Positions 5,742 through 11,605 of a stretch of DNA of 33,280 bases are shown here, one piece after another. The position numbers and the translations under genes are program-made. The notes below the pieces were generated by a model that saw nothing but the letters and a program-made list of their open reading frames with translations, did no database searches and was not told where the DNA came from. The DNA comes from Aneurinibacillus terranovensis DSM 18919 (lineage in GTDB: Bacteria; Bacillota; Bacilli; Aneurinibacillales; Aneurinibacillaceae). The stretch spans positions 87,416 to 120,695 of the forward strand of contig NZ_KE387172.1 in assembly GCF_000430625.1 (NCBI RefSeq). The letters are read 5' to 3'. Positions within the stretch are counted from its first letter, which is position 1; the number at the start of each line of letters is the position of its first letter.

Positions 5742-6599
5742 TCAGCTCTTTTTCACGGGCTGTACAAGATAGGTGCCGATTTGCTCCCCTACACGAAGAT
5801 ACTTGCCTTCCTGTATGCCGGGCAAGTATTCCATCCTTCCCTTTTCAAACAATAAAATAACGGTTGAACCAAATTCAAACAGGCCAATTTCCTGCCCTTT
5901 TTTATAGCAGGCCGGTGGGTCTATACCAACGGAAACATATTTGCCTTGTTTTTGGTTCGTTGTATGTTCACTGTATGCGATTTTTACACTACCCACGATA
6001 AAAGCGCCCACCTTTACGATTGCCACTTCTCCGGCTTGTGTGTTAGCATACGTGATCATTCTTTCGTTTTTCGTAAATAATCCGGGCACATGGTTAACTC
6101 CGATCGTATTGACGGGAAACAACCTGCCTGGAATATATGTATATTGATTGCATTCACCGTCAATAGGCATATGGATACGGTGATAATCCCGGGGGCTTAA
6201 ATAAATGGTAATAAACGTGCCCCCATCATATAAAGCCGCCTTTTCCTTCGAACAGCCAAGCAGTTGTTCAACCGTATAATGAATGTTTTTGGCTTGAATA
6301 AGGGTACCCTGTTTAATTATCCCCAGTTGAGCAACCGTCCCGTCCACAGGGCTGGCAATTGAGGAAGGGGATGAGCAAATCGGCCTGGCTCCGCTTTTTA
6401 ACTTTCGGGTAAAAAAAGCAGCTAAATTCGGGTACGATTTGAGTGGGTTTTCCATTTCACTTGTATCCAATTTGAACGCTGAAATGTATGGTTTGATAAA
6501 ATACTTGCTTATCCGTGATCGCGCCGCTTTCCCGACCAGGCGGGAAATAGCATTTTGCGGCAAGCATGTAAGAATTAATTTTGATAAATAGGCAATCAT
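5742..6599 (-). CDS. psd: Phosphatidylserine decarboxylase proenzyme
   Basis: This membrane-associated enzyme converts phosphatidylserine to phosphatidylethanolamine. The 285-aa proenzyme cleaves itself at a Gly-Ser bond to create a pyruvoyl cofactor. The cleavage motif is seen as FEFGSTVILLFEKG near the C-terminus; the usual LGST is here FGST. Other family signatures are SPVDGTVAQLG, the catalytic-histidine region YLSPRDYHRIHMPIDG, and GRLFPVNTIGVNHVPGLFTKNER. The length is in the normal bacterial range. It is read away from the divergent RND operon, with the 51-aa gene downstream. No pssA is visible in the window. Confidence 0.95.
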   Translation of the reverse strand: MIAYLSKLILTCLPQNAISRLVGKAARSRISKYFIKPYISAFKLDTSEMENPLKSYPNLAAFFTRKLKSGARPICSSPSSIASPVDGTVAQLGIIKQGTLIQAKNIHYTVEQLLGCSKEKAALYDGGTFITIYLSPRDYHRIHMPIDGECNQYTYIPGRLFPVNTIGVNHVPGLFTKNERMITYANTQAGEVAIVKVGAFIVGSVKIAYSEHTTNQKQGKYVSVGIDPPACYKKGQEIGLFEFGSTVILLFEKGRMEYLPGIQEGKYLRVGEQIGTYLVQPVKKS

Positions 6600-6738
6600 A
6601 CATATTCCCTTCCATGAAAACGTTTATGTTGTAGCCTTATTACACCGATTAACCCTTTAATATTAGTTATAATTTGTTAAAAATGCAAGACGTATTACAT
6701 CGCCCATATCAAACCGTTCCTCCTTTTTTTCGTATGTA

Positions 6739-6818
6739 ACTCGCAAACGCGTTAAGACTCCTACTATCCCCTAAGATTTTTTATCAAAAAAGGGAGGAGT
6801 TTGCCACGCTTTGCGAGT
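6739..6818 (+). repeat. Inverted repeat upstream of the RND promoter
   Basis: ACTCGCAAA at 6739-6747 is complementary to TTTGCGAGT at 6810-6818. The loop contains GGGAGGAG (6792-6799), a ribosome-site-like sequence with no correctly spaced gene start after it. It lies before the mapped-by-eye RND promoter, so it may be a relic or a regulator site. Confidence 0.35.
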
Positions 6819-6858
6819 TTCCTGCTGTTTCCAGTTGATTTTCTCTTAATTTTTTTCG

Positions 6859-6887
6859 TTGAAATTTTAGATATAATTGGTTATATT
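6859..6887 (+). promoter_or_regulatory. Sigma-A promoter of the RND operon
   Basis: TTGAAA (6859-6864) and TATATT (6882-6887) are separated by 17 bp. The predicted transcript would begin at about 6894, at the edge of the palindrome that follows. Confidence 0.6.
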
Positions 6888-6894
6888 ATACCTA

Positions 6895-6920
6895 TACACA
6901 TACCCATATGGGTATGTGTA
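6895..6920. promoter_or_regulatory. Perfect 26-bp palindrome, probable operator
   Basis: Each half is TACACATACCCAT and its exact complement, centred between 6907 and 6908. It starts within a few bases of the predicted transcription start and ends 24 bp before the adaptor ATG. A repressor bound here would block the RND promoter. The ATACCC/GGGTAT core flanked by A/T resembles CsoR/RcnR-type operators, but TetR-family sites are also long palindromes. No regulator gene is adjacent. Confidence 0.6.
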
Positions 6921-6944
6921 AAGATCGGTCGGGGGGAGCAGAAA

Positions 6945-8249
6945 ATGAGAGGGGCGCTTAAACTGTTTATTTTTTTGGTGATTCCGGTTACGGTTTTTTT
7001 ACTGCTGCTTGGCGGTGCTTTTACGGATAAAATCAAACCTGGGGTCGCCGCATCAGAAACACCAAAAGAGGTACGCGGGGTACCCGTTGGGAAAGTAAGC
7101 AACAACGCCTACCAGGCTGAATTAAGTGTACCTGGTACGGTGGTGACAAAAGAGGAAACAATGGTTTCCAGTAAACTGATGGCCCCCGTAGAGAAGATTC
7201 TAGTAAAGAAAGGGCAACTGGTCAAACAAGGGCAACCGCTTGTGCTGCTCGATCAAGCGCAGGTTTCCACACAGGCAAACCAAGCGAAAGCCGGAATTAC
7301 GGCGGCACAGGTCGCGCAACAAAGTGTCGAGAAATCAATAGAACTTGCTCAGTCGGGCGTACTTCAAGCGAACAGCGCCGTCCAACAGGCGCTGACAGGC
7401 GTACAGGATGCACAAGCGCGCTATCAAAACGCGACAGATGTCTATAACCGTTCGAAAACATTATTCGAAAACGGCGCCATCAGCCGCCAGGATTACGATA
7501 ACGCCAAAACGAATTACGATACGGCCCGTATCGCGGTTGACAAAGCGAAGGCCGCTCTCGCCCAGGCGAATGACGCGGTGAATCAGGCCAAGGCAGCGGT
7601 TGGCGTGGCCGTCGCCAAACGTGGGGAAGCCGGAGCCCAGATTCAGCAGGCCGAAGCTGGTTACGCTGTCGCCAATGTAAGTGTGTCCGATGCAACCATT
7701 CGGGCTCCGTTTGACGGCATGGTCGTTGATACTCTTGTCCACGAAGGGGATATGGCCTCACCAGGCACACCGCTGCTGACAATGGAACAACAGCCTTATT
7801 ATTTGGAAACATACGTCGATGAACGGAAAATGGAAGACATCGCAGTCGGTAACAAGATTCCAATCACAATCGAAGCCTTGCATATGCAACAAACGGGAAC
7901 CGTTGCAGAAATCACGCCGCATATCGATCCGGCAAGCCGCAAGTTCCGCGTGAAGATTTTGCTGCCGCAAACAGACGGGCTGATGAGCGGGCTGTTCGGG
8001 GAAGCAGCATTCCCGGACGGTGGCGATCAAAGTATTTTTATCCCGCAGGATGCCATCGTCCATTGGTCCCAATTTACAGGTGTCTATGTCGTCGATGAGA
8101 ACAGCATTTCCCATTTGCGCTACGTTAGTCTCGGGCGCACGAGCGGACCAAATGTGGAAGTGTTAAGCGGATTGAAAGCGGGGGAACGAATCGTCACATC
8201 TTCCGTGGATAAGGTAACAGATAAAGCCAGGGTGGTGGCGGCCCCATGA
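6945..8249 (+). CDS. RND efflux periplasmic-adaptor-type subunit (HlyD/AcrA family)
   Basis: The 434-aa membrane-fusion protein starts at the ATG at 6945, behind GGGGGAG. An upstream TTG at 6801 in the same frame would add 48 residues but lies before the likely promoter. An N-terminal hydrophobic anchor (LFIFLVIPVTVFLLLLGGAF) is followed by the first half of a lipoyl/barrel-sandwich domain (VEKILVKKGQLVKQGQPLVL). Next comes an Ala/Gln-rich helical hairpin (residues about 100-240), the second half (IRAPFDGMVVDTLVHEGDMA), then beta-barrel and membrane-proximal domains. It links an RND pump to the cell envelope. Its stop overlaps the pump start by four bases (ATGA), so the two are translationally coupled. 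Substrates are unknown. Confidence 0.9.
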   Translation: MRGALKLFIFLVIPVTVFLLLLGGAFTDKIKPGVAASETPKEVRGVPVGKVSNNAYQAELSVPGTVVTKEETMVSSKLMAPVEKILVKKGQLVKQGQPLVLLDQAQVSTQANQAKAGITAAQVAQQSVEKSIELAQSGVLQANSAVQQALTGVQDAQARYQNATDVYNRSKTLFENGAISRQDYDNAKTNYDTARIAVDKAKAALAQANDAVNQAKAAVGVAVAKRGEAGAQIQQAEAGYAVANVSVSDATIRAPFDGMVVDTLVHEGDMASPGTPLLTMEQQPYYLETYVDERKMEDIAVGNKIPITIEALHMQQTGTVAEITPHIDPASRKFRVKILLPQTDGLMSGLFGEAAFPDGGDQSIFIPQDAIVHWSQFTGVYVVDENSISHLRYVSLGRTSGPNVEVLSGLKAGERIVTSSVDKVTDKARVVAAP

Positions 8250-11200
8250 GCGAGGAGCAGCAAAAACCAAAACAGCGTTTGGGCATTGCCGGACAAATCG
8301 CCCGGGTGTTCATCGACTCGAAGCTGACACCATTGCTTGTGGTCGCAATTCTATTGCTCGGAGTGTTCGCGGTCATGAATACTCCGCGGGAAGAAGAACC
8401 GCAAATCAAAGTGCCGATGATGGATGTGTACATTCCATACCCTGGCGCCACTGCCGCGGATGTGGAAAACCGGGTCACCAAAATCATGGAGAAAAAACTG
8501 TGGAAAGTCGACGGCATCGAATACATCTATTCGACTTCCAAACCAGGAATGGCGATGTTTACGGCGCGATTCTATGTCGGTAAGGATCTTGATCAGAGTC
8601 TTGTCCGCCTGTATAACGCGCTGATGTCCAACATGGACGAACTTCCCCAGGGAACTATGCAGCCCATTGTGAAACCGGTCACGATCGATGACGTCCCAAT
8701 CGTGTCGGTCACCCTCTGGAGCAAACAGCTGAACGATTACGCCCTGCACAGAATCGGAACCGTTGTGAGCGATGAAGTGAATAAAATTAATAATATCGCC
8801 AAAACGAACGTGATTGGCGGGAGGAACAGGGAAGTTCGCATTCAATTCGACCCGAAACGGCTGGCGGCGTATCACTTGTCCCCGGTCACAGTTGAGACGA
8901 CACTACAGCAAACTAACTTATCACTGCCAGCCGGAACGTTTGACAAGGAAGATATCAATAATCAGGTCAAAGCCGGACGTTACTTGTTAAGCAAAGAGGA
9001 AATTGAAAATTTGGTCATTGGCGTGTACCAGAACCGCCCTGTTTATGTAAAAGACATTGCTACAATTATCGATGGGCCAGGTGAAATTAGTCAGTACGTG
9101 CTGTTTGGACCGGGACCCCAGGCGAAAGATAAAGGTGTTAACGAAACAATCGGTACGACGTATCCGGCGATAACGATCCAGGTGTCCAAGAAACCCGGCA
9201 CGAATGCGGTCGCCATTGCCAAGAACGTGATCCAAAAGATCGATGATTTGAAAGGAAAAGTCATTCCTGACGATGTACATGTGACCGTCACACGGAACTA
9301 CGGAGACACAGCGGAGGAAAAAGCGAATGAATTAATCATACATCTGCTTATCGCCACATTCTCCGTTGTGCTGCTTATTGGTGTTTCTCTCGGCATACGC
9401 GAAGCTGTGGTGATCGGGATTACTGTTCCGGTGACGCTTGCGCTTGCTCTTTTCCTAAGTGATATGTATGGCTATACGTTAAACAGGGTTACCCTTTTCG
9501 CACTCATTTTCGCGATCGGGATTCTTGTCGATGACGCGATCGTCGTCGTGGAAAATATGCATCGGTGGTTTCAAAAAGGCACACATCCACCGTTAGCAGC
9601 GTCCGTGCTAGCCGTCAACGAGGTCGGAAACCCGACGATTCTTGCGACGATAACCGTTATTGCGACTTTAATGCCGATGGCGTTTGTCGGCGGCTTGATG
9701 GGTCCATATATGGCCCCGATTCCTATTAACGCATCGGTTGCCATGTTTTTCTCGCTGTTTGTCGCGTTTATCATTACACCGTGGTTTGCCTACCGTCTCT
9801 TAAAAAAATCGGGCGGTACGCATCCGCTTAAGGAAATATCGTTTTCGTTCGATACGCTGCGGGGCGGAAGCCGGTGGTATGCCCGTTTTATCCGGGGCCT
9901 GCTTCTAAACAAAGGGAAGCGCGCGCTATTTCTCGGCAGCATTGTGGTATTACTGCTCGGGTCGATGTTGTTCTTTTATACGAAAGCGGTACCCATGAAA
10001 ATGATGCCATTTGACAACAAGAGCGAATTCCAGGTGGTCGTGGATATGCCGGAAGGGACGACGTTAGAGGATACGGCCAAAGCGACGAAAGCGTTGGGAG
10101 ACTATCTCGCACATGTCAACGAAGTAACAGACTATGAGATGTACATCGGAACGGCTTCGCCTTTTAACTTTAACGGTCTTGTTCGTCATTATTATTTACG
10201 CACAGGCCCGAACGTTGCGGATATTCAAGTCAATCTTGTCCACAAGCAACTTCGCCAGCAGCAAAGCCATGACGTCGCCAAGCGCATTCGCCCTTATTTG
10301 GATGCAATTGCGGCCAAATACGGCGCCAATATAAAAGTCGTAGAAGTGCCTCCAGGTCCTCCGGTAATGTCGACCATTGTGCTCGAAGTATATGGAAACA
10401 ATAAGGAAGACCAGTATGATATCACAAAACAAGCCGAGAAAATTTTCAGGGAAACAAAAGGTGTTGTTGATGTCGATACGTATATGGAAGCCAATCAACC
10501 CGAATATCGTTTCACGATTAACGATAAAGGACGCTTAAACGGGATCACGGAACAATCGTTTGTCAAAACGATGCAGATGGTGTTGCAGGGAAGCGAGGTA
10601 GGCCTGCTTCATCCGCCGAATGAGCTCGATCCTGTCGTGATCCGGGTACAACCGCCCAAAGGAGACCGCTCCAGCCTTGAGTTGTTAAAAAGCATTCAAA
10701 TTCCGACCCCGTCCGGGCAGCTTATTCCTCTGGGCGAAATCGCGACGATCGAAAAAGGCGCCGTTGAGCAAACTCTCTACCGCAAAAACCTGCAAAGTGT
10801 GATGTATGTAGTAGGAGATGTAGCCGGGTATGAAGAAAGCCCCGCCTATTCGATTGCGAATATGTGGGACCGTATCGGTGCCTTGAAGACGAAGTCGGGA
10901 AAAAAAGTGACCCAATATATTACGCAACAACCATGGCTTGAAGACGGAGTAAGCGTAAAATGGGATGGCGAATCGCAGATTACGTATGAAGTATTCCGTG
11001 ATTTGGGTATCGCGTTCGGCGTAGCGCTTATCATTATGTACTTGCTTATCGTTGGCTGGTTCCAATCGTTTGTGACACCGCTCATCATCATGTCACCGAT
11101 TCCGCTGACACTCATCGGCGTCATCCCCGGCCACTGGATATTCGGGGCCTTCTTTACCGCAACGTCAATGATTGGGGTTATCGCCCTCGCGGGAATCATC

Positions 11201-11527
11201 GTGCGGAATTCAATTTTACTCGTCGAGTTTGCCATTCAGCGCCGCAAAGAAGGGGCTGTACTTACGGAGGCCGTCATCGAGGCCGGCATCGTACGCGCCA
11301 AACCGATTATTCTTACGGCGGCAGCCGTAGTCGTGGGCGGGTTCGTTATTCTGTTCGACCCTATCTTTCAGGGTTTGGCTATCTCGCTTATGTTTGGTAC
11401 GATTACATCCACCATTCTAACGCTGTTTGTCATTCCGGTTGTTTATGCCATGGTGGAAACAAAACGGGCACAGCGCAAACAAAAACCATGTCAAATCGAG
11501 TGTGCGGATGACGTGCTTGGAATGTAA
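8246..11527 (+). CDS. RND multidrug/cation efflux transporter (AcrB-like)
   Basis: The 1093-aa inner-membrane proton antiporter has the duplicated RND layout. There is TM1 near residue 30, a large extracytoplasmic domain, a TM2-6 block, a second domain from about residue 580, and a final TM block. The proton-relay motif GILVDDAIVVVENMHR is intact (D429, D430). The second half carries ALAGIIVRNSILLVEFAIQR. The N-terminus has PREEEPQIKVPMMDV and PGATAADVENRVTKIMEKKL, typical of the AcrB/MexF branch. Firmicutes have no outer membrane or TolC partner, so export is presumably from the membrane outer leaflet. It is co-transcribed with the adaptor and followed by a clear terminator. Substrate is unknown. 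Confidence 0.93.
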   Translation: MSEEQQKPKQRLGIAGQIARVFIDSKLTPLLVVAILLLGVFAVMNTPREEEPQIKVPMMDVYIPYPGATAADVENRVTKIMEKKLWKVDGIEYIYSTSKPGMAMFTARFYVGKDLDQSLVRLYNALMSNMDELPQGTMQPIVKPVTIDDVPIVSVTLWSKQLNDYALHRIGTVVSDEVNKINNIAKTNVIGGRNREVRIQFDPKRLAAYHLSPVTVETTLQQTNLSLPAGTFDKEDINNQVKAGRYLLSKEEIENLVIGVYQNRPVYVKDIATIIDGPGEISQYVLFGPGPQAKDKGVNETIGTTYPAITIQVSKKPGTNAVAIAKNVIQKIDDLKGKVIPDDVHVTVTRNYGDTAEEKANELIIHLLIATFSVVLLIGVSLGIREAVVIGITVPVTLALALFLSDMYGYTLNRVTLFALIFAIGILVDDAIVVVENMHRWFQKGTHPPLAASVLAVNEVGNPTILATITVIATLMPMAFVGGLMGPYMAPIPINASVAMFFSLFVAFIITPWFAYRLLKKSGGTHPLKEISFSFDTLRGGSRWYARFIRGLLLNKGKRALFLGSIVVLLLGSMLFFYTKAVPMKMMPFDNKSEFQVVVDMPEGTTLEDTAKATKALGDYLAHVNEVTDYEMYIGTASPFNFNGLVRHYYLRTGPNVADIQVNLVHKQLRQQQSHDVAKRIRPYLDAIAAKYGANIKVVEVPPGPPVMSTIVLEVYGNNKEDQYDITKQAEKIFRETKGVVDVDTYMEANQPEYRFTINDKGRLNGITEQSFVKTMQMVLQGSEVGLLHPPNELDPVVIRVQPPKGDRSSLELLKSIQIPTPSGQLIPLGEIATIEKGAVEQTLYRKNLQSVMYVVGDVAGYEESPAYSIANMWDRIGALKTKSGKKVTQYITQQPWLEDGVSVKWDGESQITYEVFRDLGIAFGVALIIMYLLIVGWFQSFVTPLIIMSPIPLTLIGVIPGHWIFGAFFTATSMIGVIALAGIIVRNSILLVEFAIQRRKEGAVLTEAVIEAGIVRAKPIILTAAAVVVGGFVILFDPIFQGLAISLMFGTITSTILTLFVIPVVYAMVETKRAQRKQKPCQIECADDVLGM

Positions 11528-11572: not shown

Positions 11573-11605
11573 AAGCGGCCGGAAAGGCCGCTTCTTTTAT
11601 TTTTC
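11573..11605 (+). terminator. Terminator of the RND operon
   Basis: Arms AAGCGGCC (11573-11580) and GGCCGCTT (11586-11593) around a GGAAA loop are followed by CTTTTATTTTT, 45 bp past the pump stop. Confidence 0.85.

Follow-up and report, generated by a model that had tools for sequence, protein, structure and literature searches.

A perfect 26-bp palindrome at the transcription start of an operon encoding a membrane-fusion protein (MFP) and an RND permease in Aneurinibacillus terranovensis is predicted, with considerable confidence, to be a CstR-type operator, i.e., a site for a persulfide-sensing repressor of the CsoR family. From sequence comparisons, the RND operon is very likely a new member of the CstR regulon. 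Reactive sulfur is the probable inducer of the pump, because the core of the palindrome is shared with the switch that precedes the organism's own hydrogen sulfide detoxification genes.

The palindrome and the RND promoter

The palindrome, TACACATACCCATATGGGTATGTGTA, was located at positions 6895..6920 by an exact palindrome search of the window, which is the whole 33-kb stretch of DNA analyzed here (33,280 nucleotides), and carries no strand assignment. It begins at the inferred transcription start (~6894) of the MFP/RND operon, just 3' of a sigma-A-like promoter. The latter consists of a -35 element, TTGAAA (6859..6864, plus strand; pattern match, letters read), and a -10 element, TATATT (6882..6887, plus strand; pattern match), separated by a 17-bp spacer. 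A ribosome-binding site, GGGGGGAG, was recognized by reading at 6931..6938 (plus strand). The initial annotation had marked 6859-6920, a span that comprises the promoter and the palindrome, and its report of a 26-bp perfect palindrome at the transcription start proved exact. The TTGAAA-17-TATATT promoter that it described is present, but the sigma-A call rests on position, because promoter-like matches between 6400 and 7300 (two found against 1.7 expected) are no commoner than in shuffles. The window content also agrees with its statement that no regulator lies alongside, as no regulator gene adjoins the palindrome within the window. Upstream of the RND promoter lies a divergent phosphatidylserine decarboxylase gene (5742-6599, minus strand), and the gap between them (6600-6858) contains a 10-bp inverted repeat, AACTCGCAAA/TTTGCGAGTT, at 6738-6747 and 6810-6819.

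No other perfect palindrome of at least 16 bp occurs in the window. Perfect palindromes of at least 26 bp are expected from the window's base composition 0.0006 times per window and 0.07 times per 4.25 Mb, and the longest perfect palindrome in 100 Markov-random windows was 22 bp. Within the palindrome, a conserved core, ATACCC-ATAT-GGGTAT (6900..6915, no strand), was delimited by its recurrence in the genome and upstream of orthologous operons and is the proposed CstR-type operator; the outer arms, TACAC/GTGTA, are not conserved. The core places an inverted TACC/GGTA repeat (6900-6915) at the promoter, adjoining the -10 element.

A palindrome in this position could also act in RNA, by folding into an 11-bp hairpin at the mRNA 5' end, which would either be stabilizing or serve as a protein-binding site. 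The RNA of the window does fold well here (-19.3 kcal/mol, z -4.7), with none of 200 shuffles as good. However, the hairpin is not kept in the two orthologues that were folded (z -1.6 in L036 and +0.2 in L035), and Rfam gave no match at the gathering threshold in 6500-7300; on these two grounds the RNA reading was rejected as barely plausible. The distance between the core and the -10 element also varies, and at the G000:C8 site the core precedes the -10 element (by reading). A secondary, mRNA-stabilizing effect of the palindrome is possible in this species.

Recurrence of the core in the genome and in orthologous operons

The pattern ATACCC-N4-GGGTAT was taken from the regions upstream of RND orthologues and then scanned over the 4.25-Mb genome. 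With at most one mismatch it occurs in 11 places against seven for a reversed-pattern control, and with at most two mismatches in 132 places against 130. As these counts barely exceed the control, the case rests on the location of the cores and not on their number. Seven of the 11 lie upstream of genes, namely the RND operon and six sulfide/persulfide or cstR-type units, and the remaining four lie inside coding frames. Three cores are exact: the RND-operon site, C8:26915, upstream of genes for a YgaP-like transmembrane protein and an SQR-like flavoprotein (68 bits, below the cut-off of 525 of its best NCBIfam SQR model), and C52:8935, upstream of a CsoR-family (cstR) gene. The eight one-mismatch cores include the four in coding frames and four intergenic ones, each of which precedes sulfur genes or a decayed cstR. 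The latter are found on C4, before a decayed CsoR-family gene in a neighborhood of TusA, TusA-rhodanese, rhodanese-MBL, TauE and DsrE genes; on C13, before a CoA-disulfide-reductase/rhodanese gene that is followed by a CsoR-family gene; on C32, before a row of TusA-rhodanese, DsrE2-like, rhodanese-MBL and TauE genes; and on C52, before a rhodanese gene. The decayed cstR-like gene (G000:C4:73437-73744; L094:4438-4745) contains several stops and still has its one-mismatch core on the 5' side.

The initial annotation had proposed a genome search for further copies; the full 26-mer has no second copy in the genome at up to three mismatches, and the core recurs at cstR and at sulfur genes. When a matrix was built from the other six sites, the RND site scored highest of all positions in the window, with 19.1 and the runner-up at 8.1. 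This test is partly circular, because the pattern that identified the training sites had been chosen with the help of L034-L036. The genome's RND paralogues on contig C3, with 26-27% identity, have no upstream core with up to two mismatches, and the listing of cores at this threshold covers that contig completely.

Close RND orthologues (68-75% identity) were collected from named genomes and further relatives; the closest named ones are Bacillota. They are rare, occurring at E <= 1e-120 in 6/398 genomes of the class and 3/398 of the phylum, with the present genome counted in both. When the upstream DNA was read, a -10-like element in Schinkia, a Bacillales MAG and Calidifontibacillus was seen to be followed immediately by ATACCC-N4-GGGTAT or a close variant of it. 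A core with zero to two mismatches was found within 200 bases of the MFP start in the window and in all eight other close orthologues with upstream DNA, a count that leaves out L037, the contig of which starts inside the RND gene. The core is exact in the window and in L036, has one mismatch in L035 and L106, and has two in L034, L070, L071, L107 and L108, among which L070 and L071 belong to the same genus. Compared to Markov resamples of each region, these cores gave p values of 0.001-0.007, except for 0.048 in L070. The weak sites are those of G034, G053 and G082, with scores of 2.2, 7.3 and 7.1 and p values of 0.048, 0.007 and 0.006, respectively.

Conservation of the palindrome upstream of orthologous RND operons had been set beforehand as the refuting test; the 26-bp palindrome is not conserved there, but the 16-bp core is. 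The 26-mer and its centre, CCCATATGGG, occur in none of the orthologue loci scanned, and no perfect palindrome of at least 16 bp with the core was found in 40 other loci, two of which (L005 and L006) stop short of the operon's upstream region. In two more distant orthologues (59-60%), the 2.6 kb preceding the RND gene contain no core with up to two mismatches, and each genome has a single CsoR-family protein that is not of the Cys-Asn-Cys type discussed below. A sulfur-gene neighborhood is mostly absent around the close orthologues, with the exceptions of G103 and G063. In G103, a genome from whose family no further member was found, two DsrE-like genes lie upstream, of which one exceeds the Pfam cut-off and the other falls short of it, and the core lies between them and the MFP gene. 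In G063, ~130 bp separate the RND gene from a downstream cstR-like frame with one stop (L108:8312-8573), which has a one-mismatch core on its 5' side at 8263. In L034-L037, L070 and L071 the operon is near mbl/flagellar/fabZ-type genes, unlike in the window, and no regulator was recognized there by reading.

CsoR-family regulators

Three CsoR-family proteins are encoded intact in the genome, and a fourth copy is broken. At the ligand positions, the C13 and C52 proteins have Cys-Asn-Cys (C-N-C, CstR-type) and the C8 protein (G000:C8:39699) has Cys-His-Cys (C-H-C, copper-type CsoR). The solved structure nearest to the C52 protein, 7mq1, is also Cys-Asn-Cys; we take it to be the pneumococcal persulfide sensor, and its record says copper. 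A C-N-C CstR is present in all nine core-bearing genomes (the present one, G034, G053, G063, G082, G103 and those of L034-L036, the last three assigned by eye). It is also present in all three pump-less relatives examined (G001, G005 and G007), so that the presence of CstR in pump-bearing genomes says little on its own. The link is strengthened by the location of the core, which lies, with at most one mismatch, near 9/17 C-N-C CsoR-family loci and near 0/24 other CsoR-family loci, the genome's own loci included. Stretches of ~3.2 kb were used for this comparison, i.e., the core had to lie within ~1.5 kb on either side. The 17 loci were assigned by an Asn at the middle position and include L135, which is without the second Cys; the 24 include L145-L147, the residues of which are unread. 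Exact cores are found at three of the 17 C-N-C loci, and eight of the 17 have no core at up to one mismatch. Two stretches of 3.2 kb around C-N-C cstR genes, L122 (G063) and L130 (G001), hold three exact cores each.

The initial annotation had regarded the palindrome as an operator, which is supported by the recurrence of the core at sulfide/persulfide genes, at a cstR gene and at orthologous operons. It had named as possible regulators a metal- or thiol-sensing CsoR-type repressor and a TetR-type drug sensor. For the metal branch, the palindrome would be the operator of a copper-sensing CsoR and the pump an exporter for copper or metal stress. CsoR and CstR are the same protein family, the C-H-C csoR gene of C8 lies in the same region as a gene for a heavy-metal P-type ATPase, and several CsoR-binding sequences contain a single TAC/GTA inverted repeat (excerpts of PMC10318464). 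However, the ~390 and ~280 bases upstream of the genome's own copA-like and csoR genes contain no ATACCC-N4-GGGTAT at up to three mismatches and by reading show an asymmetric G tract instead. The other intergenic cores adjoin sulfur or cstR genes, which also argues against a copper CsoR. Because the core is missing from the copA/csoR promoters and from all 24 non-C-N-C loci, the copper reading was rejected as very improbable, although some cross-binding by CsoR may occur. The thiol branch of the earlier proposal is supported, with the core near C-N-C and not near other CsoR-family genes. Another candidate would be a repressor of the TetR type, or some other drug sensor, with its gene at a distance; TetR regulators commonly have long perfect palindromes at the promoters of pumps. 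Against this, copies of the core lie next to cstR genes both here and in other genomes, and no tetR was seen by reading next to the core in nine stretches of the genome; we consider such a repressor very improbable.

In one respect the site departs from the usual family pattern. CsoR-RcnR sites usually carry a run of at least four G or C, with TTHA1953 as an exception (excerpts of PMC10318464). No such run is present in the RND core, which has CCC-ATAT-GGG, and the C8, C4, C13 and C52-rhodanese sites likewise have none. TTHA1953, a CsoR-like sulfur regulator of Thermus thermophilus, resembles the proposed system in its operator, a TAC/GTA palindrome that has no long G/C tract, and in a regulon that lies far from the regulator gene. 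It differs in its consensus, TACNNTACNNNNGTANNGTA, which is spaced otherwise, and in its control of sulfur-oxidation genes; the term RND is absent from that paper (PMC10318464).

Targets of CstR described in excerpts of PMC5480029, PMC9405070 and PMC9918477 include rhodaneses/sulfurtransferases, TauE, SQR, persulfide dioxygenase and CoA-persulfide reductase. In the CstR regulons of S. aureus (the cst operon), E. faecalis (CstR) and B. licheniformis (YrkD), a dithiol repressor of the CsoR family acts on the same kinds of genes that carry the core here. No RND operon is named in these excerpts, whereas the regulon proposed here is scattered and includes an RND pump. No link between CstR and an RND pump was found among the matches listed from open-licence papers, which is not proof of absence.

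We infer CstR binding and its release by persulfide at the palindrome by analogy with work on CstR/YrkD elsewhere. Reduced CstR, from one or both of the C13 and C52 paralogues, would bind ATACCC-N4-GGGTAT at the transcription start and block the RND operon. Upon a rise in persulfide or polysulfide, the CstR cysteines would become cross-linked and the repressor would be released. The MFP/RND pump would then be made alongside the products of the SQR-like, rhodanese, CoA-disulfide-reductase and rhodanese-MBL genes and, more speculatively, would remove a product of sulfur stress from the membrane or the cell.

The pump, its relatives and sulfur-linked efflux

The operon encodes a membrane-fusion (adaptor) protein (6945..8249, plus strand), with profile matches to HlyD_D23 / RND_mfp and an ATG at 6945 assigned by reading, and an RND permease of 1093 aa (ACR_tran; 8246..11527, plus strand; PF00873, 9e-164). 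By reading, it is followed by a terminator-like hairpin, AAGCGGCC-GGAAA-GGCCGCTT, and a T-rich tract (11573..11593, plus strand). The best solved relatives of the permease are MexK and other multidrug permeases, and other RND proteins of the class match it at ~22-35%. The Asp pair of TM4 is present (LVDDAIVVVEN in the window) and is kept in all 18 aligned sequences, the window included. TM10 reads VRNS at the position where AcrB has a Lys. The permease has two cysteines in all, both at its unconserved C-terminus.

Sulfur genes accompany some of the distant relatives. Among 32 distant RND loci (L038-L069, of which several are incomplete, at 44-67% over the best segment), 12 have a frame related to the YgaP-like transmembrane protein of the C8 site. 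In 11 of them, from several phyla, it lies within 1.5 kb of the RND match (L041, L045, L046, L049, L051, L052, L058, L061, L063, L066 and L068), and the four frames checked against Pfam YgaP-like_TM were all above the cut-off. Loci of other RND pumps from the window's class served as a control; with 1.5-kb flanks, none of the 27 contains such a frame, though this set differs taxonomically from the test set. SQR-like genes are present at L048, L061 and L063 and, more weakly, at L058; rhodaneses at L045, L046 and L061; and two Sulf_transp (YeeE-type) genes at L051. Most of the 32 loci have no SQR, rhodanese or transporter. In L048 the gene row is ArsR, YgaP-TM, SQR-like, outer-membrane-factor-like, MFP and RND. 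An ArsR protein nearest to BigR is encoded in L060 (94 bits against a cut-off of 155), with its relatives in L061 and L063. In Nitrospirae and further relatives (L038-L043, L045, L047, L052 and L056), the pump genes are likewise preceded by ArsR-family genes, and an ELCVC motif was read in those of L038 and L039. This motif resembles that of arsenic-type ArsR, and for that reason a metalloid role is possible for the pump in these relatives.

Sulfide-linked RND operons are already in print for Proteobacteria. In Azospira suillum, the Dsui_3440-3443 operon encodes an SQR together with a cation/multidrug efflux pump and an RND-type MFP, and it is highly expressed under sulfide-oxidizing conditions; its deletion left the sulfide oxidation rate unchanged, and the authors consider metal-sulfide export (excerpts of PMC5358917). 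This Gram-negative operon is likened to that of the window by gene content and not by homology of the pumps. RND pumps, proposed to act on sulfur compounds, are also among the likely targets of sHdrR/SqrR/BigR-type ArsR sensors of sulfane sulfur (excerpts of PMC12423496). BigR-like ArsR proteins are found near relatives of the window pump (L060, L061 and L063), although this repressor family is unrelated to CstR. In a third case, the MexAB-OprM RND pump is derepressed by sulfane sulfur through MexR (excerpts of the review PMC12918742); compared to the window, this is a MarR-family regulator and a multidrug pump in a Gram-negative organism.

Genomic association suggests, as a best guess, that the pump exports reactive sulfur species or a product thereof, and it may be part of a poorly known group of exporters for sulfur stress. 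More tentatively, and with some doubt, it could represent a separate RND subfamily that extends across phyla and is devoted to reactive sulfur. Its members would export persulfides, polysulfide, membrane-dissolved elemental sulfur or a metal-sulfide/thiol adduct under unrelated persulfide sensors, i.e., CstR in Gram-positives and BigR/SqrR-like ArsR next to SQR-like enzymes in Proteobacteria.

The disposal of surplus persulfide and zero-valent sulfur has been described mainly as enzymology, involving SQR, dioxygenases and rhodaneses, together with TauE-type exporters. An RND pump in the CstR regulon, if true, would add another kind of active efflux to the Gram-positive sulfur response and give a physiological job to an RND group that has none assigned. 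It would also provide a concrete link between sulfide stress and efflux, testable with one operator and two repressors.
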